64,000 nucleotides of DNA from positions 978,728 through 1,042,727 of the forward strand of contig BROI01000011.1 of the NCBI GenBank assembly GCA_027923505.1, read 5' to 3'. Source of the stretch: Mayamaea pseudoterrestris. Its lineage: Eukaryota; Bacillariophyta; Bacillariophyceae; Sellaphorales; Sellaphoraceae. Within the stretch, counting starts at the first letter, position 1, and every line of letters begins with the position of its first letter. The position numbers were made by a program, and so were the translations under genes. The notes beneath the pieces were generated by a model, which was given only the letters and a program-made list of their open reading frames with translations, did no database searches and was not told the origin of the DNA. Shown one piece after another: positions 18,500-64,000 of the stretch.

Positions 18500-18698
18500 G
18501 CGCAAAGACGCAAACACTTGGCCAGAGAGTCGTCTGCTTTTGTGATGGGCTTTGGACGAAGCGTGACACAAAACGTGTTCGATGCTGGTGCGACATTTCG
18601 CCAAGTTGAAGCGCGCCGCGATCACCGACGACGATTCCATCATTCGTCCGTTTCCAAAGGCGCGCCGCGGGGACAACGAAATAGGAGAGATCCACAGA

Positions 18699-21649: not shown

Positions 21650-22828
21650 GCTACAGTGTGTGGCCTTCAAACACTACCCCCAATAGTCTTGTTCCATAAA
21701 TTCTGTTCTGGCAATCCTTTGGGACATGTATGCAGTGACATTGGTGCATAACAATCATTCCCAGCTCACGTGTAGCATCAGTTCTTTCGGAGGGCAAAGA
21801 TCCACACAGTAACCAGCTACATGGTGCTACAGAATAAGGCCTTTAATGACTACCCCCAAAAGTCTTGTTCCATGAATTCTGTTCTGGCTATGCTTGAGGA
21901 CAAGTATGCGGTGAAATTGGTGCATAACAATCATTCCCAGCTCACGTGTAGCATCAGTTCTTTTGGAGGGCAAAGATCCCCACAGTAACCAGCTACATGG
22001 TGCTACAGAATAAGGCCTTCAATAACTACCCCCAAAAGTCTTGTTCCATGAATTCTGTTCTGGCTATGCTTGATGACAAGTATGCGGTGAAATTGGTGCA
22101 TAACAATCATTCCCAGCTCACATGTAGCATCAGTTGTTGGGGAGGGCAAAGATCCACACAGTAACCAGCTACACGGTGCTACCGGTACATGTGTGGCCTT
22201 TAATGACTACCCCTCATAGTCTTGTTCCATGAATGCTGTTCTGGCTATCCTTGGGGACACATATGCGGTGAGATTGGTGCATAACAGTCATTCCCAGCTC
22301 ACATGTAGCATCAGTTGTTGGGGAGGGCAAAGATCCACACAGTAACCAGCTACACGGTGCTACAGAATAAGGCCTTCAATGACTACCCCCCATAGTCTTG
22401 TTCCATGACTTCTGTTCTGGCTATGCTTGAGGACACATATGCGATGATATTGGTGCACAACAATCATTCCCAGCTCACGTGTAGCATCAGTTGTTGGGGA
22501 GGGCAAAGATCCACACAGTAACCAGCTACACGGTGCTACATGTGTGGCCTTTAATGACTACCCCTCATTCTTGTTCCATGAATGCTGTTCTGGCTATTCT
22601 TGGGGACACATATGTGGTGAGATTGGTGCATAACAGTCATTCCCAGCTCACATGTAGCATCAGTTGTTGGGGAGGGCAGAGATCCGCACAGTAACCAGCT
22701 ACAAGGTGCTACAGTGTGTGGCCTTTAATGACTACCCCCAATAGTCTTGTTCCATGACTTCTGTTCTGGCTATCCTTGGGGACACATATGCGGTGAGATT
22801 GGTGCATAACAATCATTCCCAGCTCACA
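21650..22828. repeat. Satellite family 1: ~176-bp tandem repeat, about 7 units
   Basis: The landmark TTCTGTTCTGG (variant TGCTGTTCTGG) recurs at 21701, 21877, 22053, 22234, 22410, 22583 and 22759, giving spacings 176, 176, 181, 176, 173 and 176. Each unit also carries ATTCCCAGCTCAC, GATCCACACAGTAACCAGC and CTTTAATGACTACCCC. Units differ by scattered substitutions and small indels (extra CGGTACATGTG near 22181). No coding potential: 176 is not a multiple of 3 and frames are closed. Confidence 0.95.
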
Positions 22829-23230
22829 TAGCTAACAAAGTTATAGTCTTTTCAATTAATGTCATGAAGCATGTCCAGAAAAACACATTCGCGGGGCGGG
22901 GAGGTGGTTTGTAGGATCAATGGCTTCACAAAGCCTGCATTGACTTTTGCGCGCTCCACATGCACAAACAAACACAGCCAAGCAATAGACAGTAAAATTG
23001 ACCCTGGCCTTCAAAGCAACCTTTGATAAGAAATGCCAACAACTCTTAACTACAGGTAGATGGAACAAATGGAGAGGCTAGAGATTGCAGTATTCAAGTG
23101 GTAATTAATGACTCTTTGAGAGCACACTCCTACTGTAAAACAATGTGCTTTGGGATAGCTAGCATGGTCATTGTGAGGGGCCATTGCATGCACCTGAAGC
23201 TTGACGTCATCTACGTTGTAGTGGCAGTTT
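22829..23230. other. Single-copy spacer between satellites 1 and 2
   Basis: About 400 bp unrelated by eye to either flanking satellite. Contains one 68-codon minus-strand frame (23068-22862, Cys-rich) with no support as a gene. No tRNA, palindrome or known element recognised. Confidence 0.6.
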
Positions 23231-26018
23231 TGGCTGCAGGAACATCAGCATTGCCTGCTGAGCCCTCCAATATCTTTCACATCATATAAGTTGTCATGAT
23301 GGGCCATAAGTTGGTCAGTTGCACCTCAGTACCATCACCACGTATGCCACGGTGAGACTGAGCAGATCCAACAACTTGTTGGATCTGCTAGCAATGCACC
23401 TCAAGTGGCAAGTGAGACTTCCAAAATGGCCAAAAGACCCCATAAAACAACAAAAATGGACTCTAACATTGAATGGGGCTCATAGACTTGTCCATTTGGG
23501 TGTGGAAGCTATCACTATGCCCTGAATGCCCGCACATTCAACAACTGGTTGAATGTGCCAGCATTGCTCCCTTTTTGGCTGCAGGGATCATCAGCATTGC
23601 CTGCTGAGCCCTCCAATATCTTTCACATCATGTTTGTTGTCATGATGGGCCATAACTTAGTCATTTGCACTGCAGTATTCACCGCCACACATGCCATGGT
23701 GAGACTGAGCAGATCCAACAACTTGTTGGATCTGCCAGCAGTGCACCTCAACTGGCAAGCGAGACTTCCAAAATGGCCTCCAGACCCCATAATACAACTA
23801 ACATAGACTTTAACATTGAATGGGACTCATAGACTTATCCGTTTGGGTGTGGAAGCCATCACTATGCCCAGAAACTCTGCACATTCAACAACTGGTTGAA
23901 TGTGCCAGCCCTGCTCCCTTTTTGGCTGCAGGGATCATCAGCATTGCCTGCTGAGCCCTCCAATATCTTTCACATCATATAAGATGTCATGATGGGCCAT
24001 AAGTTGGTCAGTTGCAGCTCAGTATCCATCACCATGTATGTCATGGTGAGACTGAACAGATCCAACAACTTGTTGGATCTGCTAGCGGTGCACCTCAAGT
24101 GGCAAATGAGACTTCCAAAATGGCCACCAGACCCCATAATACAACAAACATAGACTCTAACATTGAATGGGGCTCATAGACTTGTACATTTGGGTGTGGA
24201 AGCCATCACTATGCCCTGAAACTCCGCACATTCAACAACTGGTTGAATGTGCCAGCATTGCTCACTTTTTGGCTGCAGAAATCATCAGCATTGCCTGCTG
24301 AGCCCTCCAATATCTTTCACATCATATAAGTTGTCATGATGGGCCATAAGTTGGTCAGTTGCACTGCAGTTTTCCATCACCATGTATGCCATGGTGAGAC
24401 TGAACAGATCCAACAATTTGTTGGATCTGCCAGTGGTGCACCTCAAGTGGCAAGCAAGACTTTTAAAATGGCCTCAAGACCCCATAATACAACTAACATA
24501 GACTCTAACATTGAATGGGGCTCATAGACTTATCTGTTTGGGTGTGGAAGCCATCACTATGCCCTGAAACTCCGCACATTCAACAACTGGTTGAATGTGC
24601 CAGCATTGCTTCCTTTTTTGGCTGCAGGGATCATCAGCATTGCCTGCTGAGCCCTCCAATATCTTTCACATCATATAAGTTGTCATGATGGGCCATAAGT
24701 TGGTCAGTTGCACTGCAGTATCCATCACCACTTAGGTCATGGTGAGACTGAGCAGATCCAACAACTTGTTGGATCTGCCAGCGGTGCACCTCAAGTGGCA
24801 AGTGAGACTTCCAAAATGGCCACCAGACCCCATAATACAACAAACATGGACTCTAACATTGAATGGGGCTCATAGACTTGTACATTTGGGTGTGGAAGCC
24901 ATCACTATGCCCTGAAACTCCGCACATTCAACAACTGGTTAAATTTGCCAGCATTGCTCCCTTTTTGGCTGCAGGGATCATCAGCATTGCCTGCTGAGCC
25001 CTCCAATATCTTTCACATCATATAAGTTGTCATGATGGGCCATAAGTTGGTCAGTTGCACTGCAGTATTCGTCACCATGTATGCCATGGTGAGACTGAGC
25101 AGAATACAACAAACATGGACTCTAACATTGAATGGGGCTCATAGACTTGTACATTTGGGTGTGGAAGCCATCACTATGCCCTGAAACTCCGCACATTCAA
25201 CAACTGGTTAAATTTGCCAGCATTGCTCCCTTTTTGGCTGCAGGGATCATCAGCATTGCCTGCTGAGCCCTCCAATATCTTTCACATCATATAAGTTGTC
25301 ATGATGGGCCATAAGTTGGTCAGTTGCACTGCAGTATTCGTCACCATGTATGCCATGGTGAGACTGAGCAGACATTGTTGGATCTGCCGTGCATGGCAAG
25401 TGAGACGCCAGACCCCATAATACAACTTACATAGACTCTGACATTGAATGGGGCTCATAGACTTATCCGTTTGGGTGTGGAAGCCATCACTATGCCTAGA
25501 AACTCCGCACATTCAACAACTGGTTGAATGTGCCAGCATTGCTCCCTTTTGACTGCAGGGATCATCAGCATTGCCTGCTGAGCCCTCCAATATCTGTCCC
25601 ATCATATCAGTTGTCATGATGGGCCATAAGTTGGTCAGTTGCACTGCAGTATCCATCACCTTTTATGCCATGGTGAGACTGGCGCAACAACTTGTTGGAT
25701 CTGCCAGCGGCACCTCAAGTGGCAAGCGAGACTTCCAAAATGGCTCCAGACCCCATAATACAACACACCACAGGACTCTAACAGTGCCATAGACTTGTCC
25801 GTTTGGGTGTGGAAGCCATCACTATGCCCTGAAACTCCGCAAATCAACAACTGGTTGAATGTGCCAGCTACACTTGCTCCCTTTTTGGCTGCAGATATCA
25901 TCAGCATTGCCTGCTGAGCCCTCCAGTATCTTTCACATCATATAAGTTGTCATGATGGGCCATAAGTTGGTCAGTTGCACTGCAGTATCCATCACCATGT
26001 ATGCCATGGTGAGACTGA

Positions 26019-26045
26019 GCAGATCCAACAACTTGTTGGATCTGC
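26019..26045. repeat. Perfect 27-bp dyad in the 347-bp unit (example copy)
   Basis: Arms GCAGATCCAACAA and its reverse complement are separated by a single C. The same dyad is found, intact or mutated, in nearly every 347-bp unit. The centre ACAACTTGT is kept even in units whose outer left arm is lost (for example near 29815, 31200, 31890, 32240 and 32585, where the left arm reads GACCCTACAA or close to it). Confidence 0.9.
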
Positions 26046-27202
26046 CAGCGGTGCACCTCAAGTGGCAAGCGAGACTTCCAAAATGGCTTCCAGACCCCAT
26101 TATACAACAACCATGGACTCTAACAGTGAATGGGCTCATAGACTTGTCCGTTTGGGTGTGGAAGCCATCACTATGCCCTGAAACTCCGCACATTAACAAC
26201 TGGTTGAATGTGCCAGCATTGCTCCCTTTTTGGCTGCAGGGATCATCAGCATTGCCTGCTGAGCCCTCCAATATCTTTCACATCATATAAGTTGTCATGA
26301 TGGGCCATAAGTTGGTCAGTTGCACTGCAGTATCCATCACCATGTATGCCATGTTGAGACTGAGCAGATCCAACAACTTGTTGGATCTGCCAGCGGTGCA
26401 CCTCAAGTGGCAAGTGAGACTTCCAAAATGGCCACCAGACCCCATAATACAACAAATATGGACTCTAACAGTGAATGGGGCTCATAGACTTGTCCGTTTG
26501 GGTGTGGAAGCCATAACTATGCCCTGAAACTCCGCACATTCAACAACTGGTTGAGTGTGCCAGCATTGCTCCCTTTTTATCTGCAGGCATCATCAGCATT
26601 GCCTGCTGAGCCCTCCAATATCTTTTACATCATATAAGTTGTCATGATGGGCCATAAGTTGGTCAGTTGCACTGCAGTATCCATCACCATGTATGCCATG
26701 GTGAGACTGAGCAGATCCAGCAACTTGTTGGATCTGCCAGTAATGCACCTCAAGTGGCAAGCGAGACTTGCAAAATGGCTACCAGACCCCATAATACAAC
26801 ACACATGGACTCTAACTTTGAATGGGGTTCATAGACTAAAACATTTGGGTGTGGAAGCCATCACTATGCCCTGAAACTCCGCACATTCAACAACTGGTTG
26901 AATGTGCCAGCATTCCCTTTTTGCTGCATCAGCATTGCCTGCGGCCCAGTCACACATATATGTCAATGATGGGCCATAAGTTGGTTAGTTGCACTGCAGT
27001 ATCCATCACCATGTATGCCATGGTGAGACTGAGCAGATCCAACAACTTGTTGGATCTGCTAGCAGTGCACCTCAAGTGGCAAGCGAGACTTCCAAAATGG
27101 CCTCAAGACCCCAAAATACAACAAACATGGACTCTAACATTGAATAGGGCTCATAGACATATCCGTTTGGGTGTGGAAGCCATCACTATGCCCTGAAACT
27201 CA

Positions 27203-27229
27203 GCACATTCAACAACTGGTTGAATGTGC
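27203..27229. repeat. Second dyad in the 347-bp unit (example copy)
   Basis: Arms GCACATTCAAC and GTTGAATGTGC (perfect 11-bp inverted repeat) flank AACTG. It occupies in the second half-unit the place the 27-bp dyad has in the first, supporting a dimeric origin. Present in almost all units. Confidence 0.9.
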
Positions 27230-30200
27230 CAGCCCTGCTCCCTTTTTGGCTGCAGGGATCATCAGCATTGCCTGCTGAGCCCTCCAATATCTTTCACATC
27301 ATATAAGTTGTCATGATGGGCCATAAGTGGTCAGTTGCACTGCAGTATCCATCACCATGTATGCCATGTTGAGACTGAGCAGATCCAACAACTTGTTGGA
27401 TCTGCCAGCGGTGCACCTCAAGTGGCAAGTGAGACTTCCAAAATGGCCACCAGACCCCATAATACAACAAACATGGACTCTAACATTGAATGGGGCTCAT
27501 AGACTTATCCGTTTGGGTGTGAAAGCCATTACTATGCCCTGAAACTCCGCACATTCAACAACTGGTTGAATGTGCCAGCATTGCTTCCTTTTTTGGCTGC
27601 AAGGATCATCAGCATTGCCTGCTGAGCCCTCCACTATCTTTTACATCATATAAGATGTCATGATGGGCCATAATTTGGTCAGTTGTACTGCTGAATCCAT
27701 CACCATGTATGCCATGGTGAGACTGAGCATATCCAACAACGTGTTGGATCTGCCAGTGGTGCACCTCAAGTGGCAAGTGAGACTTCCAAAATGGCCACCA
27801 GACCCCATAATACAACAAACATGGACTCTAACATTGAATGGGGCTCATAGACTTGTCCGTTTGGGTGTGGAAGCCATCACTATGCACTGAAACTCCGCAC
27901 ATTCAACAACTAGTTGAATGTGCCAGCATTGCTCCCTTATTGGCTGCAGGGATCATCAGCATTGCCTGCTGAGCCCTCCACTATCTTTCACATCATATAA
28001 GTTGTCATGATGGGCCATAAGTTAGTTGGTCAGTTGCACTGCAGTATCCATCATCATGTATGCCATGGTGAGACTGAGCAGATCCAACAACTTGTTGGAT
28101 CTGCCAGCAGTGCACCTCAAGTGGCAAGTGAGACTTCCAAAATGGCCACCAGACCCCATAATACAACAAACATAGACTCTAACATTGAATGGGGCTCATA
28201 GACTTGTGCATTGGGTGTGGAAGCCATCACTATGCCCTGAAACTCCGCACATTCAACAACTGGTTGAATGTGCCAGCATTGCTCCCTTTTTGGCTGCAGG
28301 GATCATCAGCATTGCCTGCTGAGCCCTCCAATATCTTTTACATCTTTTTTGTTGTCATGATGGGCCATAAGTGGTCAGTTGCACTGCAGTATCCATCACC
28401 ATGTATGCCATGGTGAGACTGAGCAGATCCAACAACTTGTTGGATCTGCCAGCGGTGCACCTCAAGTGGCAAGTGAGACTTCCAAAATGGCCTCCAGACC
28501 CCATAATACAACTAACATGGACTCTAACATTGAATGGGGCTCATAGACTTGTCCATTTGGGTGTGGAAGCCATCACTATGCCCTGAAACTCCGCACATTC
28601 AACAACTGATTGAATGTGCCAGCAGTGCTCCCTTTTTGGCTGCAGGGATCATCAGCATTGCCTGCTGAGCCATCCAATATCTTTCACATCATGTTTGTTG
28701 TCATGATGGGCCATAAGTTGGTCAGTTGCACTGCAGTAAACATCACCATGTATGCCATGGTGAGACTGAGCAGATCCAACAACTTGTTGGATCTGCTAGC
28801 AGTGCACCTCAAGTGGCAAGCGAGACTTCCAAAATGGCCTCAAGACCCCATAATACAACAATCATAGACTCTAACATTGAATAGGGCTCATAGACGTATC
28901 CATTTGGGTGTGGAAGCCATCACTATGCCCTGAAACTCCGCACATTCAACAACTGGTTGAATGTGCCAGCCCTGCCCCCTTTTTTGCTGCAGGGATCATC
29001 AGCATTGCCTGCTGAGCCCTCCAATATCTTTCACTTCTTGTTTGTTGTCATGATGGGCCATAAGTTGGTCAGTTGCACTGCAGTATCCATCACCATGTAT
29101 GCCATGGTGAGACTGAGCAGATCCAACAACTTGTTGGATCTGCCAGCGGTGCACCTCAAGTGGCAAGTGAGACTTCCAAAATAGCCACCAGACCCCATAA
29201 TACAACAAACATGGACTCTAACATTGAATGGGGCTCATAGACTTATCCGTTTGGGTGTGAAAGCCATTACTATGCCCTGAAACTCCGCACATTCAACAAC
29301 TGGTTGAATGTGCCAGCATTGCTTCCTTTTTTGGCTGCAGGGATCATCAGCATTGCCTGCTGTGCCCTCCAATATCTTTTACATCGTATAAGATGTCATG
29401 ATGGGCCATAATTTGGTCAGTTGCACTGCTGTATCCATCACCATGTATGCCATGGTGAGACTGAGCATATCCAACAACGTGTTGGATCTGCCAGCGGTGC
29501 ACCTCAAGTGGCAAGTGAGACTTCCAAAATGGCCACCAGACCCCATATTACAACAAGCGTTGACTCTAACAGTGAATGGGGCTCATAGACTTGTCCATTT
29601 GGGTGTGGAAGCCATCACTATGCCCTGAAACTCCGCACATTCAACAACTGGTTGAATGTGCCAGCCCTGCCCCCTTTTTTGCTGCAGGGATCATCAGCAT
29701 TGCCTGCTGAGCCCTCCAATATGTTTCACATCATCTTCATTGTCATGATGGGCCATAAGATGGTCAGTTGCACCTCAGTATTCATCACCATGTATGCCAT
29801 GGTGAGACTGAACTGACCCCACAACTTGTTGGATCTGCCAGCGGTGCACCTCAAGTGGCAAGTGAGACTTCCAAAATGGCCACCAGACCCCATAATACAA
29901 TAAACATGGACTTTAACAGTGCATGGGACTCATAGACTTGTCCATTGGGTGTGGAAGCCATCACTATGCCCTGAAACTCCGCACATTCAACAACTGGTTG
30001 AATGTGCCAGCATTGCTCCCTTTTTGGCTGCAGGGATCATCAGCATTGCCTGCTGAGCCCTCCACTATCTTTTACATCATATAAGATGTCATGATGGGCC
30101 ATAAGATGGTCAGTTGCACCTCAGTGTCCATCACCATGTATGTTATGTTGAGACTGAGCAGATCCAACAATTTGTTGGATCTGCCAGTGGTGCACCTCAG

Positions 30201-33200
30201 GTGGCAAGTGAGACTTCCAAAATGGCCACCAGACCCCATAATACAACAAACATGGACTGTAACAGTGAATGGGACTCATAGACTTGTTCTTTTAGGTGTG
30301 GAAGCCATCACTATGCCCTGAGACTCCGCACATTCAACAACTGTTTGAATGTGCCAGCCCTGCTCCCCTTTGTGGCTACAGGGATCATCAGCATTGCCTG
30401 CTGAGCCCTCCAATATATTTCATATCATATTGTTGTCATGATAAGCCATTAATCAGTTGCACCTCGGTATCCTTCACCATGTATGCCATGGAGGAGACTG
30501 AGCAGATCCAACAACTTGTTGGATCTGCCAGCGGTGCACCTCAAGTGGCAAGTGAGACTTCCAAAATGGCCTTCAGTCCCCATAATACAACTAACATGAA
30601 CTGTAACAGTGAATGGGGCTCATAGACTTATCCATGTTGGGTGTGGAAGCCATCACTATGCCCTGAGACTCAGCACATTCAACAACTGGTTGAATGTGCC
30701 AGCCCTGCTCCCTTTGTGGCTGCAGGGATCATCAGCATTGCCTGCTGAGCCCTCCAATATATTACAAATAGGTTGGTTGTCATGATGGGCCATGAGTTGG
30801 TCAGTTGCACCTCAGTATCCTTCACCATGTATGCCATGGTGAGACTGAGCAGATCCAACAACTTGTTGGATCTGCCAGCAGTGCACCTCAAGTGGCAAGT
30901 GAGACTTCCAAAATGGCCTGCAGACCCCATAATACAACAAACATGGACTGTAACAGTGAATGGGAATCATTGATTTGTCCATTGGGGTGTGGAAGCCATC
31001 GCTATGCCCTAAAACTCAGCAAATTCAACAACTGGTTGAATGTGCCAGCCCTGCTCGCTTTGTGGCTGCAGGGATCATCAGCATAGTCTGCTGAGCCCTC
31101 CAATATCCTTAAATATGTTTCTTATCATGATGGGCCATAAGTTGGTAGTTGCACCTCAGTATCCATCACCGTGTATGCCATGGTGAGACTGAACTGACCC
31201 TACAACTTGTTGGATCTGCCAGCGGTGCACCTCAAGTGGCAAGTGAGACTTTAAAAATGGCCTCCAGACCCCATAATACAACTAACATGGACTGTAACAG
31301 TGAATGGGACTCATAGACTTGTTCTTTTAGGTGTGGAAGCCATCACTATGCCCTGAGACTCCGCACATTCAACAACTGGTTGAATGTGCCAGCCCTGCTC
31401 CCTTTTTGGTTGCAGGGATCATCAGCATTGCCTGCTGAGCCCTCCAATATGTTTCGTTTTATGTTTGTTGTCATGATGGGCCATGAGTTGGTCAGTTGCA
31501 CCTCAGTATCTTTACCATGTATGCCACGGTGAGAGTGAGCAGATCCAACAACTTGTTGGATCTGCCAGCAGTGCACCGCAAGTGGCAAGTGAGACTTCCA
31601 AAATGGTCTCCAGACCCCATATTCCAACTAACATGGACTTTACCAGTAAATGGAACTCAAAGACTTGTCCATTGGGGTGTGGAAGCCATCACTATGCCCT
31701 GAGACTCCGCACATTCAACAACTGGTTGAATGTGCCAGCCCTGCTCCCCTTTGTGGCTACAGGGATCATCAGCATTGCCTGCTGAGCCCTCCAATATATT
31801 TCATATCATATTTGTTGTCATGATAAGCCATAAGAAATCAGTTGCACCTCGGTATCCTTCACCATGTATGCCATGGTGTGACTGAGCCGACCCTACAACT
31901 TGTTGGATCTGCCAGCGGTGCACCTCAAGTGGCAAGTGAGACTTCCAAAATGGCCTGCAGACCCCATAATACAACTAACATGGACTGTAATTGTGAATGG
32001 GATTCATAGACTTGTCCAATGGGGTGTGGAAGCCATCACTATGCCCTGAGACTCAGCACATTCAACAACTGGTTGAATGTGCCAGCCCTGCTCCCTTTGT
32101 GGCTGCAGGGATCATCAGCATTGCCTGCTGAACCCTCCAATATATTTCAAATAGGTTGGTTGTCATGATGGGCCATAAGGCGGTCAGTTGCACCTCAGTA
32201 TCCATCACCGTGTGTGCCATGGAGGAGACTGAACCGACCCTACAACTTGTTGGATCTGCCAGCGGTGCACCTCAAGTGGCAAGTGAGACTTCCAAAATGG
32301 CCTGCAGACCCATAATACAACAAATATGGACTGTAACAGTGAATGGGATTCATTGATTTGTCCATTGGGGTGTGGAAGCCATCACTATGCCCTAAAACTC
32401 AGCACATTCAACAACTGGTTGAATGTGCCAGCCCTGCTCCCTTTGTGGCTGCAGGGATCATCAGCATTGCCTGCTGAGCCCTCCAATATCTTTCATATCA
32501 TGTTTGTTGTCATGATAGGCCATAAGTTGGTCAGTTGCACCTCAGTATCCATCACCTTGAAAGCCATGGTGAGACTGAGCTGACCCTACAACTTGTTGGA
32601 TCTGCCAGCAGTGCACCTCAAGTGGCAAGTGAGACTTCCAAAATGGCCTCCAGACCCCATAATACAATAAACATGGACTTTAACAGTGCATGGGACTCAT
32701 AGACTTGTTTTTTTGGTGTGGAAGCCCAGGAGGCTGCCAAAACAAATTCCAGGGTATCTTGTCCCTCGCCATGGCGCCAGGGTGGGGCCTCTTTTGCCCA
32801 GGGCGTTGGGTGTACATACCAGCCCCGGTCTGGAAGCAGGCAACATGCAGGAGGCAAATGCACAAAGTGAATGCACTATACAATATCCATTTGTGACCTT
32901 GGATCATGCCCCAAGCCAGTTTACAAAGAGATTGTGGGGATCTGTTGTTTGCCACTGCTAGGGTAGGCAGTCACATAGTACCTGCTAACTGAAGCTGCTG
33001 ACCTGAGGGCAAAAGGCAAGCAGGAGGCTGATGCGCAAAACAAATTCACCAAGGAGGTCTTTCTTGTGCCCTCGGATCATGCACAGTGACTGTACGCATA
33101 GAGTGTGTGGGCACTTCATGTTTGCCACTGCTAGGTTGGTGTTCGGCAGTTGGTAGTAAGCAACATCTGCGGATCTGGAAGCAGGCAACATGCAGGAGGC

Positions 33201-33329
33201 AAATGCACAAAGTGAATGCACTATACAATATCCATTTGTGACCTTGGATCATGCCCCAAGCCAGTTTACAAAGAGATTGTGGGGATCTGATGTTTGCCAC
33301 TGCTAGGGTAGGCAGTCACATAGTACCTG

Positions 33330-50100: not shown

Positions 50101-51286
50101 ATCATGCAGTGGCTGCGCATAGCGTGTGTGGTCACTTCATGTTTGCCACTACTAGGGTGGTGTTTGGAAGTTGGGTAGTACATACCAGCAACTCCTGTGG
50201 ATCTGGAGGCAGGCAACAAGCTGCAGGCAAATGCACAAAGTGAATGCATTATACAATATCCATTTGTGACCTTGGATCATGCCCCAAGCCAGTTTACAAA
50301 GAGGTTGTGGGGATCTGATGTTTGCCACTGCTAGGATAGGCAGTCACATAGTACCTGCCAACTGAAGCTGCTGACCTGAAGGCAAAAGGCAAGCAGGAGG
50401 CTGATGCGCAAAACAAATTCACCAAGGAGGTATGTCTTGTGCCCTCGGATCATGCACAGTGGCTGTACGCATAGAGTGTGTGGGCACTTCTCATGCCAAA
50501 GGAAAAGGCAAGAGGAGGTGATTGCCACTGCTAGGTTGGTGTTCGGCAGTTGGGCAGTACATACCAGCAACTTCTGCGGATCTGGAAGCAGGCAACATGC
50601 AGGAGGCAAATGCACAAAGTGAATGCACTATACAATATTTTTTGTGACCTTGGATCATGCCCCAAGCCAGTTTACAAAGAGTTTGTGGGGATCTGATGTT
50701 TGCCACTGCTAGGGTAGGCAGTCACATAGTACCTGCTAACTGAAGCTGCTGACCTGAAGGCAAAAGGCAAGCAGGAGGCTGATGCGCAAAACAAATTCAC
50801 CAAGGAGGTATGTCTTGTGCCCTTCGGATTGCACGCAGAGTGGCTGTTGGCATATGTTGCCATGTTTGCCACTGCTGTTGGGAAGGATCGGGCAGGCAAC
50901 ATGCAGGGAGGCAAATGCACAATAATGAATGCACTATACAATATCCATTTGTGACCTTGGGATACCTGAACAAAGGTGTGGGGGCGTTTGCCACTGGCTG
51001 GGGCAGTTCTCCTGCCAGCACGCGGCTGGCCTGAGAAGGCAAAAAGCCACAGAAGGAGGCTGATGCGCAAACAAAATTCACCAAGGAGGTATGTCTTGTG
51101 TCCTTGGATCATGCACAGTGGCTGTACGCATAGAGTGTGTGGACATTTCATGTTTGCCACCGCTAGGTCGGTGTTCGGCAGTTGGGTAGTGCACCAGCAA
51201 ATCCTGCGGATCTGGAGGCAGGCAACAAGCAGGAGGCAAATGCACAAAGTGAATGCACTATACAATATCCATTTGTAACCTTGATC
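47101..51286. repeat. Degraded zone of the 352-bp array
   Basis: Units here have many small deletions and substitutions (for example 47107-47275, 48500-48560, 49090-49400, 50820-51060), interleaved with almost consensus units (47680-48480, 48720-49010, 50340-50500). Patchy decay inside single units is unusual for an ageing array, where damage should be spread more evenly. Confidence 0.85.
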
Positions 51287-51400
51287 GTAAATCAACTCAC
51301 TTTCTAGAGAACTGCTTAATCAACTAGCGTTTTGTGGATAAGACCCCGGGATAAACCAAGGTAAAGGACTGATCATCCCGCCACTTGGAAACCGACTACG
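51287..51400. mobile_element. 114-bp non-satellite insertion in the 352-bp array
   Basis: The unit stops at CCTTGATC and resumes at GGTAGGCAG; the segment between has no resemblance to any satellite here. It replaces about 60 bp of the unit and is followed by a second small change (CCGGCACTG). No terminal inverted repeats, target-site duplication or coding frame seen, so 'mobile element' is only a possibility. Filler DNA from break repair is as likely. Confidence 0.4.
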
Positions 51401-54400: not shown

Positions 54401-54822
54401 CGGCAGTTGGGTAGTACATACCAGCAACTTCTGCGGATCTGGAAGCAGGCAACATGCAGGAGGCAAATGCACAAAGTGAATGCACTATACAATATCCATT
54501 TGTGACCTTGGATCATGCCCCAAGCCAGTTAACAAAGAGATTGTGGGGATCTGATGTTTGCCACTGCTAGGGTAGGCAGTCACATAGTACCTGCTAACTG
54601 AAGCTGCTGACCTGAAGGCAAAAGGCAAGCAGGAGGCTGATGCGCAAAACAAATTCACCAAGGAGGTATGTCTTGTGCCCTCGGATCATGCACAGTGGCT
54701 GTACGCATAGTGTGTGTGGGCACTTCATGTTTGCCACTGCTAGGTTGGTGTTCGGCAGTTGGGTAGTACATACCAGCAACTTCTGCGGATCTGGAAGCAG
54801 GAAACAAGCAGGAGGCAAATGC
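51401..54822. repeat. Variant subfamily of the 352-bp satellite
   Basis: Units share diagnostic changes absent from the core: CCCTTGGATCATGC for CCCTCGGATCATGC, GCGCAAACCAAATTC for GCGCAAAACAAATTC, CTGAAGGCCAAGGC, GGAACAAGCAGG and GAGGTTGTGG. Core-type units appear in between (52485-53060, 54220-54830), so two subfamilies are interspersed. Confidence 0.85.
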
Positions 54823-56461
54823 ACAAAGTGAATGCACTATACAATATCCATTTGTGACCTTGGATCATGCCCCAAGCCAGTTTACAAAGAGATTGTGGGG
54901 ATCTGATGTTTGCCACTGCTAGGGTAGGCAGTCACATAGTACCTGCTAACTGAAGCTGCTGACCTGAAGGCAAAAGGCAAGCAGGAGGCTGATGCGCAAA
55001 ACAAATTCACCAAGGATGTATGTCTTGTGCCCTCGGATCATGCACAGTGGCTGTACGCATAGAGTGTGTGGGCACTTCATGTTTGCCACTGCTAGGTTGG
55101 TGTTCGGCAGTTGGGTAGTACATACCAGCAACTCCTGCGGATCTGGAAGCAGGGAACAAGCAGGAGGCAAATGCACATAGTGAATGCACTATACACTATC
55201 CATTTGTGACCTTGGATCATGCCCCAAGCCAGTTTACAAAGAGGTTGTGGGGATCTGATGTTTGCCACTGCTAGGATAGGCAGTCACATAGTACCTGCCA
55301 ACTGAAGCTGCTGACCTGAAGGCAAAAGGCAAGCAGGAGGCTGATGCACAAAACAAATTCACCAAGGAGGTATGTCTTGTGCCCTTGGATCAAGCACAGT
55401 GGCTGTATGCATAGAGTGTGTGGGCACTTCATGTTTGCCAATGCTAGGTTGGTGTTTGGCAGTTGGGTATACATACCAGCAACTTCTGCGGATCTGGAAA
55501 CAGGCAACAAGCAGGAGGCAAATGAACAAAGTGAATGCACTATAAAATTTTCATTTGTGACCTTGGATCATCCCCCAAGCCAGTTTACAAAGAGGTTGTG
55601 GAGATCTGATGTTTGCCACTGCTAGGATAGGCAGTCACATAGTACCTGCCAACAGAAGCTGCTGACCTGAAGGCCAAGGCAAGCAGGAGGCTGATGCGCA
55701 AACCAAATTCACCAAGGAGGTATGTCTTGTGCCCTCGGATCATGCACAGTGGCTGTACGCATAGAGTGTGTGGGCACTTCATGTTTGCCACTGCTAGGTT
55801 GGTGTTCGGCAGTTGGGTATACATACCAGCAACTTCTGCGGATCTGGAAGCAGGCAACAAGCAGGAGGCAAATGCACATAGTGAATGCGCTAAACACTAA
55901 CCATTGGTGACCTTGGATCATGCCCCAGCCAGTTGACAAAGAGGTTGTGGGGATCTGATGTTTGCCACTGCTAGGATAGGCAGTCACATAGTACCTGCCA
56001 ACAAAAGCTGCTGACCTGAAGGCCAAGGCAAGCAGGAGGCTGATGCGCAAACCAAATTCACCTAGGAGGTATGTCTTGTGCCCTTGGATTATGCACAGTG
56101 GCTGCACACATAGAGTGTGTGGGCACTTCATGTTTGGCACTGCTAGGTTGGTGTTTAACAGTTGGGTAGTACATACCAGCAACTCCTGCAGATCTGGAAG
56201 CAGGGAACAAGCAGGAGGCAATTGCACAAAGTGAATGCGCTATACACTATCCATTGGTGACCTTGGATCATGCCCCAGCCAGTTGACAAAGAGGTTGTGG
56301 GGATCTGATGTTTGCCACTGCTAGGATAGGCAGTCACATAGTACCTGGCAACTGAAACTGCTGACCTGAAGGCCAAGACAAGCAGGAGGCTGATGCGCAA
56401 ACTAAATTCACCAAGGAGGTATGTCTTGTGCCCTTGGATCAAGCACAGTGGCTATACGCAT
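54823..56461. repeat. 1,639-bp tandem duplication, copy 1
   Basis: Contains about 4.66 variant 352-bp units and begins ACAAAGTGAATGCACTATAC. Every landmark and frame inside reappears exactly 1,639 bp downstream with no difference noticed. 1,639 is not a multiple of 352, so this is not unequal exchange in register. Confidence 0.9.
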
Positions 56462-58100
56462 ACAAAGTGAATGCACTATACAATATCCATTTGTGACCTT
56501 GGATCATGCCCCAAGCCAGTTTACAAAGAGATTGTGGGGATCTGATGTTTGCCACTGCTAGGGTAGGCAGTCACATAGTACCTGCTAACTGAAGCTGCTG
56601 ACCTGAAGGCAAAAGGCAAGCAGGAGGCTGATGCGCAAAACAAATTCACCAAGGATGTATGTCTTGTGCCCTCGGATCATGCACAGTGGCTGTACGCATA
56701 GAGTGTGTGGGCACTTCATGTTTGCCACTGCTAGGTTGGTGTTCGGCAGTTGGGTAGTACATACCAGCAACTCCTGCGGATCTGGAAGCAGGGAACAAGC
56801 AGGAGGCAAATGCACATAGTGAATGCACTATACACTATCCATTTGTGACCTTGGATCATGCCCCAAGCCAGTTTACAAAGAGGTTGTGGGGATCTGATGT
56901 TTGCCACTGCTAGGATAGGCAGTCACATAGTACCTGCCAACTGAAGCTGCTGACCTGAAGGCAAAAGGCAAGCAGGAGGCTGATGCACAAAACAAATTCA
57001 CCAAGGAGGTATGTCTTGTGCCCTTGGATCAAGCACAGTGGCTGTATGCATAGAGTGTGTGGGCACTTCATGTTTGCCAATGCTAGGTTGGTGTTTGGCA
57101 GTTGGGTATACATACCAGCAACTTCTGCGGATCTGGAAACAGGCAACAAGCAGGAGGCAAATGAACAAAGTGAATGCACTATAAAATTTTCATTTGTGAC
57201 CTTGGATCATCCCCCAAGCCAGTTTACAAAGAGGTTGTGGAGATCTGATGTTTGCCACTGCTAGGATAGGCAGTCACATAGTACCTGCCAACAGAAGCTG
57301 CTGACCTGAAGGCCAAGGCAAGCAGGAGGCTGATGCGCAAACCAAATTCACCAAGGAGGTATGTCTTGTGCCCTCGGATCATGCACAGTGGCTGTACGCA
57401 TAGAGTGTGTGGGCACTTCATGTTTGCCACTGCTAGGTTGGTGTTCGGCAGTTGGGTATACATACCAGCAACTTCTGCGGATCTGGAAGCAGGCAACAAG
57501 CAGGAGGCAAATGCACATAGTGAATGCGCTAAACACTAACCATTGGTGACCTTGGATCATGCCCCAGCCAGTTGACAAAGAGGTTGTGGGGATCTGATGT
57601 TTGCCACTGCTAGGATAGGCAGTCACATAGTACCTGCCAACAAAAGCTGCTGACCTGAAGGCCAAGGCAAGCAGGAGGCTGATGCGCAAACCAAATTCAC
57701 CTAGGAGGTATGTCTTGTGCCCTTGGATTATGCACAGTGGCTGCACACATAGAGTGTGTGGGCACTTCATGTTTGGCACTGCTAGGTTGGTGTTTAACAG
57801 TTGGGTAGTACATACCAGCAACTCCTGCAGATCTGGAAGCAGGGAACAAGCAGGAGGCAATTGCACAAAGTGAATGCGCTATACACTATCCATTGGTGAC
57901 CTTGGATCATGCCCCAGCCAGTTGACAAAGAGGTTGTGGGGATCTGATGTTTGCCACTGCTAGGATAGGCAGTCACATAGTACCTGGCAACTGAAACTGC
58001 TGACCTGAAGGCCAAGACAAGCAGGAGGCTGATGCGCAAACTAAATTCACCAAGGAGGTATGTCTTGTGCCCTTGGATCAAGCACAGTGGCTATACGCAT
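56462..58100. repeat. 1,639-bp tandem duplication, copy 2
   Basis: Second copy, ending GTGGCTATACGCAT at 58100. The next base begins satellite family 4 (GCCATTGACAGG), so the duplication ends exactly at the family junction. Confidence 0.9.
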
Positions 58101-58849
58101 GCCATTGACAGGTGCAGAGTCTCAATGGTGCAAAAAGGACTGCCTGGAGGCTGACACCATGGGAACGGCCTCCACTGTGGGCATGGCCAACAATATGAGT
58201 TGTAGATTCTGACCTGTCAAACGCCCCATGCCCTGGCCACCCAAATACCCAATGAGTCAGGCAAAACCTGTCCAGGGTAAGCCATTGACAGGTACAGAGT
58301 CTCAAATGATGCAAAAATGACTTCCTGGAGGCTGACACCATGGGTACGGCCTCCACTGTGGATATGGCCAACACCAAAAGTTGTAGATTCTGACCTGTCA
58401 TACGCCCCATTCCCTGGCTACCCAAATACCCAATGAGTCAGGCAAAACTTGTCCAGGGTATGCCATTGCCTGGTGCAGAGTCTCAAATGGCGCAAAAAGG
58501 ACTGCCTGGAGGCTGACACGAAGGGTACGGCCTCCACTGTGGGTATGACCAACACCACAAGTTGTAGATTCTGACCTGTCAAACATCCCATGCCCTGGCC
58601 ACCCAATTACCCAATGAGTCAGGCAAAACATGTCCAGGGTATGCCATTGACAGGTGCAGAGTCTCAAATGGTGCATAAAGGACTGCTGGAGGCTGACACC
58701 ATGGGTACGGCCTCCACTGTGGGTATGGCCAACACGACAAGTTGTAGATTCTGACCTGTCAAATGCCCCATGCCCTGGCCACCCAAATACCCAATGAGTC
58801 AGGCAAAACATGTCCCGGGTATGCAATTGATAGGTGCAAAGTCTCAAAT
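58101..58849. repeat. Satellite family 4: ~181-bp tandem repeat, about 4 units
   Basis: GCCATTGACAGGT (or variant) starts units at 58101, 58281, 58462, 58643 and 58823 (spacing 180-181). Within a unit TTGACAGGT and ACCTGTCAA form a widely spaced inverted repeat. Two units carry ACAAGTTGT (58557-58565, 58737-58745); the others have degraded versions. The fifth unit breaks off at AAGTCTCAAAT, where family 5 begins. Confidence 0.93.
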
Positions 58850-61588
58850 CCCCTGAGAAGCCTACCATCTTGTAGCGCAGCCTGAATAATTATGTTGGCA
58901 CCATTCTGGTGTATTGTGGGCATCTACAGGGCTTGCTGTAGGGGCATTTGAATGTCACGGCATCTGCAGGCTGAGACTGGTGACAAGTTGTCACCAAATA
59001 CATTGCCATCCCCTGAGACACCCGTCAAGCCTACCATGTTGTAGCGCAGCATGAATAATGATGGTGGCACCATTCTGGTGTATTGTGGGCACCTACAGGG
59101 CTTGCTGTAGGGGCGTTTGAATGTCACGGCATCTGCGGGCTGAGACTGGTGAAAAGTTGTCACCAAATACATTGCCATCCCCTGATACACCAGCCAAGCC
59201 TACCATGTTGTAGCGCAGCCTGAATAATGATGGTTGCACCATTCTGGTGTATTGTGGGCACCTACAGGGCTTGCTGTAGGGGCAATTGAATGTCACGGCA
59301 TCTGCGTGCTGAGACTGGTGACAAGTTGTCACCAGATACATTGCCATCCCCTGAGACAACCGCCAAGCCTACCATCTTGTAGCGCAGCCTAAATAATGAT
59401 GTTGGCACCATTCTGGTGTATCGTGGGCACCTACAGGGCTTGCTGTAGGGGCGTTTGAATGTCACGGCATCTGTGGGCTGAGACTGGTGACAAGTTGTCA
59501 CCAAATACATTGCCATCCCCTGAGACACCAGCCAAGCCTACCATCTTGTAGCGCAGCCTGGATAATGATTTGTGGCACCATTCTGGTGTATTTCGGGCAC
59601 CTACAGGGCTTTCTGTTGGGGCGTTTTGAATGTCACGGCATCCGCGGGCTGAGACTGGTGACAAGTTGTCACCAAATACATTGCCATCCCCTGAGACAAC
59701 AGCCAAGCCTACCATCTTGTAGCGCAGCCTGAGCAATTATGTTGGCACATTCTGGTGTATTTTGGGCACCTACAGGGCTTGCAGTAGGGGCGTTTGAATG
59801 TCACGGCATCTGCGGGCTGAGACTGGTGACAAGTTGTCACCAAATACATTGCCATCCCCTGAGACAACCGCCAAGCCTACCATCTTGTAGCGCAGCCTGA
59901 ATAATGATGGTGGCACCATTCTGGTGTATTTTGGCCACCTACAGGGCTTTCTGTAGGGGCGTTTGAATGTCACGGCAGCCGCGGGCTGAGACTGGTGACA
60001 AGTTGTCACCAAATACATTGCCACCCTCTGAGACAACAGCCAAGCCTACCATCTTGTAGCGCAGCTTGAGCAATGATGTTGGCACCATTCTGGTGTATTT
60101 TGAGCACCTACAGGGCTTGCTGTAGGGGCGTTTAAATGTCACGGCATCTGCGGGCTGAGAGTGGTGACAAGTTGTCACCAAATACATTGCCATCCCCTGA
60201 GACAACCGCCAAGCCTATCATCTTCTAGCGCAGCCTGAATAATGATGTTGGCACCATTCTGGTGTATTGTGGGCACCTACAGGGCTTGCTGTAGGGGCGT
60301 TTGAATGTCACGGCATCTGCAGGCTGAGACTGGTGACAATGTTGTCACCAAATACATTGCCATCCCCTGAAACACCAGCCAAGCCTACCATCTTGTAGCG
60401 CAGCCTTTTTAATCATGGTGGCACCATTCTGGTGTATTTTGGCCACCTACAGGGCTTGCTGTAGGGGCGTTTGAATGTCACGGCATCTGTGGGCTGAGAC
60501 TGGTGACAAGTTGTCACCAAATACATTGCCATCCCCTGAGACACCAGCCAAGCCTACCATCTTGTAGCGCAGCCTGATCAATGATGGTGGCACCATTCTG
60601 GTGTATTGTGGGCATCTACAGGGCTTGCTGTAGGGGCGTTTGAATGTCACAGCATCTGCAGGCTGAGACTGGTGACAATGTTGTCACCAAATACATTGCC
60701 ATCCCCTGAGACACCAGCCAAGCCTACCATCTTGTAGCGCAGCCTTTTCAATCATGGTGGCACCATTCTGGTGTATTTTGGCCACCTATAGGGCTTGCTG
60801 TAGGGGCGTTTGAATGTCACGGCATCTGTGGGCTGAGACTGGTGACAAGTTGTCACCAAATACATTGCCATCCCCTGAGACACCAGCCAAGCCTACCATC
60901 TTGTAGCGCAGCCTGATCAATGATGGTGGCACCATTCTGGTGTATATTGGGCATTTACAGGGCTTGCTGTAGGGGCGTTTGAATGAGACTGGTGACAAGT
61001 TGTCACCAGATACATTGCCATCCCCTGAGACACCAGTCAAGCCTACCATCTTGTAGCGTAGCCTGAATAATGATGTTGGCACCTTTCTGGTGTATTTTGG
61101 GCATCTACAGGGCTTGCTGTAGGGGCGTATGAATGTCATGGCATCTGTGGGCTGAGACTGGTGACAAGTTGTCACCAAATACATTGCCATCCCCTGAGAC
61201 ACCAGCCAAGCCTACCATCTTGTAGCGCAGCCTGATCAATGATGTTGGCACCATTCTGGTGTATTTTGGGCTTCTACAGGGCTTGCTGTAGGGGCGTATG
61301 AATGGCACGGCATCCGCGGGCTGAGACTGGTGACAAGTTGTCACCAGATACATTTCCATCCCCTGAGACAAAAACCAAGCCTACCATCTTGTAGCACAGC
61401 CTGATCAATGATGTTGGCACCATTCTGGTGTATTTTGGGCATCTACAGGGCTTGCTGTAGGGGCGTTTGAATGTCACGGCATCTGCGGGCTGAGACTGGT
61501 GACAAGTTGTCACCAAATACATTGCCATCCCCTGAGACACCAGCCAAGCATACTATCTTGTAGCGCAGCTTAAATAAGAAGGTTAGCA
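58850..61588. repeat. Satellite family 5: ~169-bp tandem repeat, about 16 units
   Basis: TGTAGCGCAGCCTGA, GGGCTTGCTGTAGGGGC and GAGACTGGTGACAAGTTGTC recur every 169 bp or so. One unit near 60985 lacks about 20 bp; several have one-base indels. Three inverted repeats per unit: TGGTGACAA-G-TTGTCACCA, CCTACAG-GGCTTG-CTGTAGG and CACCA-TTC-TGGTG. Frames of about 88 codons read through one and a half units and are a by-product of period (169 = 1 mod 3). Confidence 0.95.
58978..58996. repeat. Perfect 19-bp dyad in the 169-bp unit (example copy)
   Basis: TGGTGACAA-G-TTGTCACCA: 9-bp arms around one base, intact in most units. Centre ACAAGTTGT differs from that of the 347-bp family dyad (ACAACTTGT) only in strand-dependent reading: the two are reverse complements. 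Confidence 0.92.
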
Positions 61589-64000
61589 CCTCATGTATAC
61601 CCTGTTCAAAGGCGGCAATGGCTAAAAAAACAATCACAGCCATAGTTTGATTGGTTAGGATTCATAGACTGCACTGTTGTTCTATTTGGCCCATCTACTC
61701 CCACAATTTACCTAACACTTGAGCGTGCCAGGTTTGTTTGTCTTTGTAGGCCTCATGGATAGCTTGGCCGATGGTGTCAATGTTGGTAATTGATGGGGAT
61801 GCCTAGCGGACCTGGTGGTGTAGTGTGGTGACGTACGGGATACTTAGCTATGTGGAAGCAAGCATGTCTACTCCCAAATCTTGAAGGATTTGCATGACCG
61901 TCAAGGTTGTAGTGGATGTTTGACTTTATAAAAAGCTTTTTGAAAAGTGGGAATGCTTCACATGATGGGGATGGCCAACGTTTTGCGGGTGCTGCCGCTG
62001 CTGCCGCTGCTGCTGTGTGACATACAGTCGCACAAAAGACAGCGTATCTACTCCTGTTTTGCCAGGAACACATAAGTTGTCCATCATTGAATGTGTCATA
62101 GAAGCTCAAACATACCTTGTTGAAAGGTGGCATTGGCTAAAATGACAATCAGAGCCATAGTTTGATTGGTTTGGATTCATAGACTGCGCTGTTGTTCTAT
62201 TTGGCCCATCTACTCCCTCAGCTTTCCCAAAACTTGAGCTTGCCAGGTTTGTTTGTCTTTGTAGGCCTCATGGATAGCTTGGCCGATGGTGGCAATGTTG
62301 GTAATTGATGGGGATGCCCAGCGGACCTGGTGGTGTAGTGTGGTGACGTATGGGATACTTAGCTATGTGGAAGCTAGCATGTCTACTCACAAATCTTGAA
62401 GGATTTGCATGACCGCCAAGGTTGTAGTGGATGATTGACTTTATAAAAAGCTTTTTGAAAGATGGGAATGCTTCACATGATGGGGATGGCCAAAGTTTTG
62501 CGGGTGCTGCCGCTGCTGCTGTGTGACATACGGTCGCACAAAATACAGCGTATCTACTCCTGTTTTGCCAGGAACACATAAGTTGTCCAACATTGTATGT
62601 GTCATAGTACCTCATGTTTACCCTGTTGAAAGGTGGCAATGGCTAAAAAGACAATCACAGCCATAGTTTGATTGGTTAGGATTCATAGACTGCGCTGTTG
62701 TTCTATTTGGCCAATCTACTCCCACAGCTTTCCCAAAACTTGAGCTTGCCAGGTTTGTTTGTCTTTGTAGGCCTCATGGACAGCTTGGCCGATGGTGGCA
62801 ATGTTGGTAATTGATGGGGATGCCCAGCGGACCTGGTGGTGTGATGTGGCGACATACGGGATACTTAGCTATGTGGAAGCTAGCATGTCTACTCACAAAA
62901 CTTGAAGGATTTGCATGACCGCCAAGGTTGCAGTGGATAATTGACTTTACAAAAGGCTTTTTGAAAGGTGGGAATGCTTCAAATGATGGGGACGACCTAA
63001 GTTCTGTGGGTGCTGCCGCTGCTGCTGCGGGGCATACAGTTGCACAAAATACAGCGTATCTACTCCTGTTTTGCCAGGAACACATAAGTTGTCCAACATT
63101 GTATGTGTCATAGTACCTCATGTATACCCTGTTGAAAGGTGGCAATGGCTAAAAAGACAATCACAGCCATAGTTTGATTGGTTCGGATTCATAGACTGCG
63201 CTGTTGTTCTATTTGGCCCATCTACTCCCACAGCTTTCCCAAAACTTGAGCTTGCCAGGTTTGTTTGTCTTTGTAGGCCTCATGGATAGCTTGGCCGATG
63301 GTGGCAATGTTGGTAATTGATGGGGATGCCCAGCGGACCTGGTGGTGTAGTGTGGTGACGTATGGGATACTTAGCTATGTGGAAGCAAGCATTTCTACTC
63401 CCAAATCTTGAAGCATTTGCATGACCGCCAAGGTTGTAGTGGATGAATGACTATATTAAAAGCTTTTTGAAAGGTGGGAATGCTTCACATGATGGGGATG
63501 GCCAAAGTTTTGCAGGTGCTGCCGCTGCTGCTGTGTGACATACAGTCGCACAAAATACAGTATATCTACTCCTGTTTTGCCAGGAACACATGAGTTGTCC
63601 AACATTGAATGAGTCATAGTTGCTCACGTATATCTTGTTGAAAGGTGGCATTTGCTAAAATGACAGTCAGAGCCATAGTTTGATTGGTTTGGATTCATAG
63701 ACTGCGCTGTTGTTCTATTTGGCCCATCTACTCCCACAGCTTTCCCAAAACTTGAGCTTGCCAGGTTTGTTTGGTTTTGTTGGCCTCATTGATAGCTTGG
63801 CCAATGGTGGCAATGTTGGTAATTGATGGGGATGCCCAGCGGACCTGGTGGTGTGATGTGGCGACATACGGGATACTTAGCTATGTGGAAGCTAGCATGT
63901 CTACTCACAAAACTTAAAGGATTTGCATAACCGCCAAGGTTGTAGAGGTTGATTGACCTTACCAAAAGCTTTTTGAAAGGTGGGAATGCTTCAAATGATG
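61589..64000. repeat. Satellite family 6: ~506-bp tandem repeat (diverged trimer), continues past the window
   Basis: TGTTGGTAAT recurs at 61781, 62296, 62802, 63308 and 63814 (515, 506, 506, 506). Within a unit TCTACTC recurs at 171, 162 and 173 bp (62382, 62553, 62715, next 62888), with other shared words (TTGAAAGGTGG-AATG; GGCCGATGGTGGCAATG; GACATACGG), so the unit is a trimer of ~169-bp monomers. A GCTGCCGCTGCTG tract in each unit has three more triplets in the first (about 61990-62017), which accounts for the 515-bp spacing. A minus-strand frame of 118-123 codons is kept in three units and broken in the fourth. Confidence 0.94.

Follow-up and report, generated by a model that had tools for sequence, protein, structure and literature searches.

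At least 42 kb of satellite DNA abruptly adjoin a gene-bearing stretch in the 64,000-nucleotide segment of contig BROI01000011.1 (assembly GCA_027923505.1) analysed here, which we call the window and whose own coordinates are used throughout. Six head-to-tail satellites, designated A to F, occupy positions 21648-64000, broken by one 398-bp spacer, and the block continues beyond the window end. In all six families the base unit measures 162-181 bp, close to one nucleosome repeat, the families show no detectable relation to one another, and all of them are depleted in CpG dinucleotides beyond a sharp boundary. We consider it probable that the block represents constitutive satellite heterochromatin of a nuclear chromosome, methylated and composed of nucleosome-length units, and most likely pericentromeric in location. 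The arrays consist of tandem direct repeats in many copies that are homogenised within each array, the features by which satellite DNA is defined. In the window, a gene part reaching to about 21.3 kb is followed, from 21.6 kb up to the window end, by a repeat part; the layout is as follows (o/e, observed-to-expected ratio).

1-21281: gene-rich flank, CpG o/e 1.13, with DEAD-box helicase pieces, eIF2B-epsilon, GWT1, a mitochondrial dehydrogenase-kinase domain, Serinc, M14 carboxypeptidase and others
21325/21326: composition boundary, with 0.0667 CpG per bp before it and 0.0092 after it (change-point fitted as one step within 1-30000, log-likelihood gain 282.8)
21648-22829, plus strand: satellite A, 176-bp monomer, about 6.7 copies
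22830-23227: spacer, 398 bp, CpG o/e 0.37
23228-32726, plus strand: satellite B, 347-bp dimer (170+177), about 27 copies, both halves carrying a near-perfect dyad of 27 bp, the two spaced 177 bp apart
32700-32828: B-to-C junction, an incomplete copy of C with numerous small deletions, its consensus suspect
32829-58100, plus strand: satellite C, 352-bp dimer (179+173), about 70 copies
48239-51628: mostly indel-riddled stretch of C, possibly low-quality assembly
52329-58100, plus strand: more diverged copies of C
54823-58100, plus strand: duplicated block of C, two adjacent 1639-bp blocks, 100% identical
58099-58849, plus strand: satellite D, 181-bp monomer, 4.2 copies
58858-61577, plus strand: satellite E, 169-bp monomer, about 16 copies, with a 19-bp dyad of 9-bp arms
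61584-64000, plus strand: satellite F, 506-bp trimer (171+162+173), 4.8 copies, extending past the window

The periods of 176, 347, 352, 181, 169 and 506 bp, which a first-pass annotation had read from landmark spacings, were all reproduced in place by Tandem Repeats Finder (TRF) and autocorrelation, the methods behind the periods and places listed above; copy-by-copy lengths come from wrap-around alignments. The same annotation had split 347 into 170+177, 352 into 179+173 and 506 into 171+162+173, and was right to do so according to autocorrelation, consensus lag and self-alignment. In the raw autocorrelation (14 lags per array) the strongest lags include the sub-periods 170/177, 173/179 and 171/173; the 162-bp lag of F is absent from that list and is seen on the consensus unit as a lag of 344 (506-162). 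Inner repeats were tested by banded circular self-alignment of each unit against 200 dinucleotide shuffles. Scores of 48 for B (null -125, standard deviation (SD) 16), 152 for C (null -128, SD 14) and -50 for F (null -188, SD 17) were reached by none of the 200 shuffles in each case, so that the half- and third-units of these three families align better than shuffled sequence. For A, D and E the best score was matched by 147, 12 and 162 of 200 shuffles, respectively, and since no significant internal repeat is present they are counted as monomers. In global alignments on the same strand the sub-units within a family reach z values of 12.4 in C, 5.4 in B and just 1.7-2.8 in F, the last obtained with free rotation of the thirds and 60 shuffles, while one half of B (B1) against the reverse strand of the other (B2) gives 4.2, which is explained by the dyads. 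Monomers within a dimer or trimer are 58-71% identical at aligned columns (29-42% different), but unrelated pairs reach similar raw identity by way of gaps, and the higher-order claim therefore rests on the self-alignment score test. B, C and F are thus higher-order repeats, whose sub-units are related but differ more among themselves than adjacent whole units do. TRF also reported a period of 1056 bp in C; a further order of that length was rejected, as it represents three near-identical 352-bp dimers.

Between families no relation could be detected. In local alignments of the circular units, made for both strands, each of the 30 comparisons was equalled or beaten by 24 or more of 300 shuffles. 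When the ten monomers were aligned globally at all rotations (40 pairs on two strands, 60 shuffles each), the best of the 80 cross-family comparisons, F3 against the minus strand of E, had a z of 2.9; none of its 60 shuffles reached it, although 80 tests can yield such a value. Families share no more 6-8-mers than shuffled sets do. A shared protein-binding motif, AGTTGT/ACAACT, was considered because it occurs in five of the six families (not in C), and was rejected because 292 of 300 shuffled sets contain some 6-mer in at least five families; 7- and 8-mers fared no better as a common motif against shuffles. Twelve tests of the 398-bp spacer against the six families detected no relation either. 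The non-tandem flank at 21326-21647 and C have an exact 13-mer in common that none of 100 shuffles reached, a single hit in 24 flank and spacer tests. In any case, the claim that unrelated-looking sequences keep one base length is borne out, in a block of unusual regularity, and the equal length of the six families would be either convergent or so old that the memory in sequence has been lost. Coincidence of length was considered and set aside: six independent lengths drawn uniformly from 50-400 bp fall within 12.3 bp in a fraction of 5e-7 of 2 million trials, and log-uniform lengths in 7.5e-6, whereas lengths drawn from a nucleosomal mode (172, SD 12) do so in 2%; all three priors are our own choice.

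The older-descent possibility would have the six families derive from one ancestral satellite of about 170 bp that diverged beyond recognition, the common length being inherited and not convergent. Within B, C and F the sub-units already differ by 29-42%, and older families would show no similarity at all; B, D and E furthermore have one 9-mer in common where shuffled sets average 0.20 such 9-mers, which is a weak lead. Common ancestry of all families had also been suspected from short boxes visible by eye in B, E and F, and was dropped when circular alignments against dinucleotide shuffles gave nothing beyond what the number of tests would produce. Whereas no cross-family pair stands out after test counting and 6-8-mers are shared as in shuffles, absent similarity cannot disprove old descent, which limits the case against such an ancestor. 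We regard it as unlikely, without dismissing it.

The strongest feature of the block, which the first-pass annotation does not mention, is its loss of CpG. The CpG o/e amounts to 0.22 in A, 0.14 in B, 0.22 in C, 0.20 in D, 0.34 in E and 0.38 in F, as opposed to 1.13 in the gene part (1-21281), and the arrays are correspondingly rich in TpG (o/e 1.51-2.06) and CpA (1.39-1.75), with 1.19 and 1.15, respectively, in the gene part. The step lies about 320 bp before the first repeat, within the non-tandem flank, and 44 bp past the start codon of the last open reading frame (ORF) before the block. The CpG o/e of 21282-21647, mostly past the step, is 0.29. Since eight inter-ORF gaps of the gene part, chosen by us, are not depleted (CpG o/e 0.84-1.42), the drop does not reflect a difference between coding and non-coding DNA. 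Among the copies, transitions are found at 31 of 50 CpG positions (25 CpGs, both bases) and at 133 of 792 other C/G positions, an odds ratio of 8.1 with a Fisher p of 9e-12 that serves as a guide only, as positions within a unit are not fully independent. No excess of transversions at CpG was found (4 variants at 50 positions versus 109 at 792, p 0.29). Taken family by family, transitions at CpG occur at a rate of 0.45-0.80 per site, the highest value elsewhere being 0.42 (non-CpG G in B); B taken alone shows a weak contrast (3 of 4 CpG sites versus 62 of 163 others). These counts leave out the damaged parts of C (below 32829, 46882-47534, 48239-51628 and 56193-56780) and of B (24823-25407, 26782-27103 and beyond 32649) as well as the array ends of A, D and E. 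On an informal look by hand, CpG positions in F seem clustered.

Loss of CpG together with an excess of CpG transitions is the established trace of germ-line cytosine methylation, and the arrays thus carry strong signs of methylation, present or past. A heterochromatic state gains independent support from the CpG depletion. One can ask whether the CpGs were removed by repeat-induced point mutation (RIP) or by plain mutational bias instead, given that the loss is common to all arrays. RIP converts CpA to TpA, but in the arrays TpA is low and CpA and TpG are high (product index 0.45-0.71, substrate index 1.48-1.92), and the adjoining gene DNA and the eight inter-ORF gaps are not depleted. Such an origin is therefore very improbable in our estimation.

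Copies are about 90-100% identical to their own consensus, damaged and partial copies aside, and all copies found in an array have one orientation; no inverted copies were seen, a minus-strand blastn of the six units yielding 20 hits of 27-36 bp, all 20 of which match the B dyad to itself. Copy length, again apart from damaged and partial copies, is 173-181 bp in A, 338-351 in B, 180-181 in D, 168-171 in E (one copy 150) and 506 in F, whose first copy measures 515 bp and has a 9-bp expansion in a GCC/GCT triplet run at 61984-62012 (insertion at unit position 405). C dimers measure 350-353 bp, with exceptions of 360 at 40215, 358 at 44060 and 345 at 32829, a large deletion at 56193-56780, and two copies of 317 and 316 bp with one 35-bp deletion. 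The latter deletion is identical in the two dimers, which lie 6.6 kb apart (40575-40891 and 47219-47534), a sign of block duplication or of copying in the assembly. Indel events were taken from the wrap-around alignment, since linear-gap alignment splits long deletions into many runs. The GC content of the arrays ranges from 0.456 to 0.517. Coding repeats were considered and rejected, none of the six unit lengths being divisible by three and the array ORFs giving no match to a repeat-protein or transposon family. Four array ORFs have at least 150 aa; three were scanned against Pfam and the fourth is identical in translation to one of these, with no transposon domain and one sub-threshold VHL match. 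No match was obtained for C, B, E and F, searched as exact patterns in viral contigs (4 of 8 scans), nor for a degenerate C pattern in a contig collection holding prokaryotes, which carries little weight because viruses and prokaryotes only were covered.

The neighbourhood of six unrelated arrays might be suspected to be an assembly artefact, in which unrelated repeat contigs were joined by gap filling. Indel-riddled copies occur in B (25102-25407 and 26782-27103), in C (46882-47218 and much of 48239-51628) and at the B/C junction, where, as in the other places, they lie next to much cleaner ones, the picture given by a consensus of long reads at low coverage; 32 letter-identical dimers of C within 33174-46529 and the two identical 1639-bp blocks could point the same way, and hybrid diatom assemblies gap-filled by long reads of about 5 kb have been described (PMC7335047). 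Against this, no run of scattered deletions is visible by eye at the C/D, D/E and E/F boundaries, and the CpG loss, which is common to the six arrays and starts about 320 bp before A in a non-tandem flank, cannot be produced by assembly error. An artefactual neighbourhood thus appears quite improbable.

Short dyads were found in two of the families, in regions spanning 23358-32700 (B) and 58858-61577 (E). All are odd palindromes with a one-base spacer, having 13-bp arms in B2, 13-bp arms with one mismatch in B1 and 9-bp arms in E, and their scores were reached by 0, 4 and 2 of 400 shuffled units, respectively. No dyad standing out from shuffles is present in A, C, D or F, and the idea of a dyad in every unit was consequently rejected; dyads are not a general rule of the block. 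The B1 dyad is among the least variable parts of its unit (mismatch 0.0093 versus 0.0541, rank 4 of 347 windows) and that of E is the least variable 19-bp window of its unit (0.0033 versus 0.0428, rank 0 of 169). The B2 dyad as a whole is not specially conserved (0.0417, rank 128 of 347), and the longest invariant run of B lies in its right arm. Between the B1 and B2 dyads two positions differ per arm, each compensated in the opposite arm. In single-strand folding both B dyads beat 200 of 200 shuffles each, and a single copy of E, 149 nt long and variant in its dyad, folded no better than shuffles, 24 of 200 being as good. The pattern suggests a bound dyad or hairpin in these two families, or template-switch correction of quasi-palindromes.

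These dyads bear on the possibility that the block is a functional centromere or part of one, with CENH3 nucleosomes on one array that are perhaps recruited via the B and E dyads. Nucleosome-length units, dimers and a trimer, and the near-perfect homogenisation of C with its 32 identical dimers would all fit, as would dyads that exceed shuffles, are among the least variable windows in B1 and E, and are compensated in B; short dyads are enriched at centromeres of several taxa according to PMC13081366. However, four of the six families lack a significant dyad and the B2 dyad is not specially conserved, and much satellite DNA of known genomes is not bound by CENH3. Beyond 21648 the lowest GC is 0.436 in 500-bp and 0.35 in 100-bp windows, and a local AT-rich minimum of the Phaeodactylum type (low GC in 100-bp windows) is not present in the repeat part, the three lowest 100-bp values of the window (0.31, 0.32 and 0.32) sitting in the gene part. 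On balance we find a centromeric function of the block itself doubtful.

The gene part identifies the window as nuclear eukaryotic DNA. Of 26 ORFs of at least 150 aa in the window, 17 were scanned against Pfam (18 scans, 18582-19454 being scanned twice), and eight gave matches above the curated cut-off, namely two DEAD-box helicase pieces, eIF2B-epsilon, a mitochondrial dehydrogenase kinase domain, Serinc, an M14 carboxypeptidase, GWT1 and a HAD domain; nine, including the three array ORFs, had none. The plus-strand ORFs at 5115-6008 and 6631-7428, both without a Pfam match, are relatives of one another, with 34% identity across 165 columns (E 2e-19), and make up a tandem pair whose family is uncharacterised. 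The last ORF before the block (20427-21281, minus strand, no Pfam match) has its start codon 44 bp from the CpG boundary, and its upstream region would fall inside the presumably methylated block. The GC of the gene part, 0.486, fits those of several diatoms (48.3% in Seminavis robusta, 48.8% in Phaeodactylum and 46.9% in Thalassiosira; PMC12803021) and proves nothing on its own. Rfam at gathering thresholds gave no match over the whole window, including ribozyme satellites and retrozymes such as hammerhead, and no tRNA was found in the window.

The direct adjacency of genes to an array would also suit a subtelomeric or interstitial heterochromatic block with no role in segregation, maintained by unequal exchange alone. 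Methylated repeats of diatoms are described as being often concentrated in telomeric regions (PMC9998398), and the brown alga Ectocarpus has a satellite located almost exclusively at sub-telomeres (PMC11541908). That unit, however, is about 98 bp long and contains TTAGGG motifs, unlike the present ones, no doublet of TTAGGG or TTTAGGG occurs on either strand anywhere in the window, and the block continues past the window end. We think a location of this type improbable.

In the scenario that we favour, pericentromeric heterochromatin, the starting point of each of the six unrelated satellites would have been a unit near one nucleosome repeat in length (162-181 bp), and the arrays would have been lengthened and homogenised by unequal exchange or rolling-circle amplification; in B, C and F, what is copied would by now be a dimer or trimer whose monomers diverged long ago. 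The CpG cytosines would be methylated in the germ line, now or formerly, by which the block would be silenced and its CpGs eroded to TpG and CpA. The shared length would most likely stem from chromatin, either because duplication units are bounded by linkers or because arrays of regular nucleosomes are better retained, and not from shared sequence. It may be explained by a duplication bias towards nucleosome length, by selection, or by drift confined to a narrow starting range.

Several observations weigh against this scenario. Selection for nucleosome-length phasing, which had been proposed in the first-pass annotation, found no support: the net length differences between related sub-units are 7, 6, 9, 11 and 2 bp, where randomly signed indels of the observed sizes leave an SD of 7.4-17.6 (the F sub-unit alignments behind this test being uncertain), and they fit random indels; the idea that length is held by compensating ones is not supported. 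Indels are rarer than substitutions, with 10 to 85 distinct substitution variants per indel variant, a rarity that would speak for selection only if set against a neutral rate for this organism. A rotational nucleosome signal is likewise absent apart from a weak one in F: the AA/AT/TA/TT signal at a period of 9.8-10.7 does not exceed shuffles in A to E (reached by 168, 102, 292, 142 and 236 of 300), and the signal of about 10 bp in F is reached by 31 of 300. As all six families come from one window, they may have a common forgotten ancestor, and assembly errors may be present in parts of B, in C and at the B/C junction. Finally, because methylation patterns at centromeric satellites differ between species (PMC8122249), methylation points to no single chromosomal location.

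A bolder version would make the block a satellite-based (peri)centromere of a diatom, in which six independent satellites would have converged on nucleosome length since CG methylation of linkers, in a DNMT5-type pattern, fixed the register of duplication and retention. In diatoms CG methylation is reported to lie on repeats and transposable elements of otherwise unmethylated genomes and to involve DNMT5 enzymes, while linker methylation is reported for three other algae and not for diatoms (PMC9998398). We put this version forward as a speculation with little chance of being right. If a satellite (peri)centromere were nevertheless real, diatoms would combine short AT-rich centromeres of the Phaeodactylum kind with higher-order satellite domains comparable to those of plants and primates.

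The interest of the block lies in the convergence of length within one genome, its tie to methylation and a possible diatom host. Whether nucleosome length in satellites results from selection, duplication mechanism or descent is debated, and six families in one block give a within-genome test; the shared CpG loss links unit length to a chromatin state. With a diatom as host, higher-order methylated satellite domains would be known from a further group, one in which the mapped centromeres have been characterised as AT-rich and short. Those of Phaeodactylum tricornutum are described as short, AT-rich and non-repetitive (PMC7082073, PMC9266582), whereas the present block contains nothing AT-rich. 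Among the open-access matches listed, titles and abstract openings contain no description of satellite arrays in a diatom nucleus, although such arrays may be in print elsewhere, and the words 'tandem repeat' and 'satellite' are absent from the main text (supplements aside) of the Seminavis, Phaeodactylum and Thalassiosira genome papers. Pleurosigma pacificum is reported to have a relatively high share of tandem repeats, but these are GC-poor (34.5%), and no unit lengths, satellites or centromeres are given in the part of that report available (PMC12803021). The CG-methylated repeat islands of diatoms, being methylated repeats in an unmethylated genome, would leave a sharp CpG step such as that at 21325; they consist, though, of transposable elements and repeats, with satellites not mentioned in the accessible portion of the account (PMC9998398), and methylation is here deduced from its trace.

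Among stramenopiles, centromeres are transposon-rich in Phytophthora sojae and putative ones are marked by retrotransposons in Ectocarpus (PMC7082073, PMC11541908). A parallel is PpSat1 of the oomycete Phytophthora parasitica (P. infestans homologue 337 bp), a stramenopile satellite that its authors regard as a candidate centromeric repeat and whose length they relate to one or two nucleosome units (PMC7290008); it is AT-rich (34% GC in P. infestans), in contrast to 0.456-0.517 here, and two families were characterised in that case against six in a single block here. A survey of 282 species found no conserved centromere repeat length across species (PMC4053949). Nucleosome-length satellites are typical of centromeric and pericentromeric regions elsewhere (PMC8122249), and the likeness of organisation to satellite (peri)centromeres of other eukaryotes, drawn in the first-pass annotation, is supported by the nucleosome-length units, the dimers and the trimer. 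The 343-bp centromere repeat of New World monkeys, like B and C, consists of two halves of about 171 bp, weakly related to each other, that are copied together as one unit (PMC4053949), in an unrelated lineage and likened here by description, not by sequence. Primate alpha satellite likewise has a nucleosome-length monomer (171 bp), dimer halves that differ by up to about 30% and neighbouring higher-order units that are up to 97-100% identical (PMC8122249), and it carries a short conserved element in its unit, as B and E do here. It is one family, whereas six unrelated ones stand side by side here in arrays that are shorter as far as visible, and the likeness is one of sequence organisation, no CENP-B box being claimed and none having been searched for. 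Overall, the block would resemble in kind the pericentromeric satellite heterochromatin of animals and plants, a kind that is itself known.

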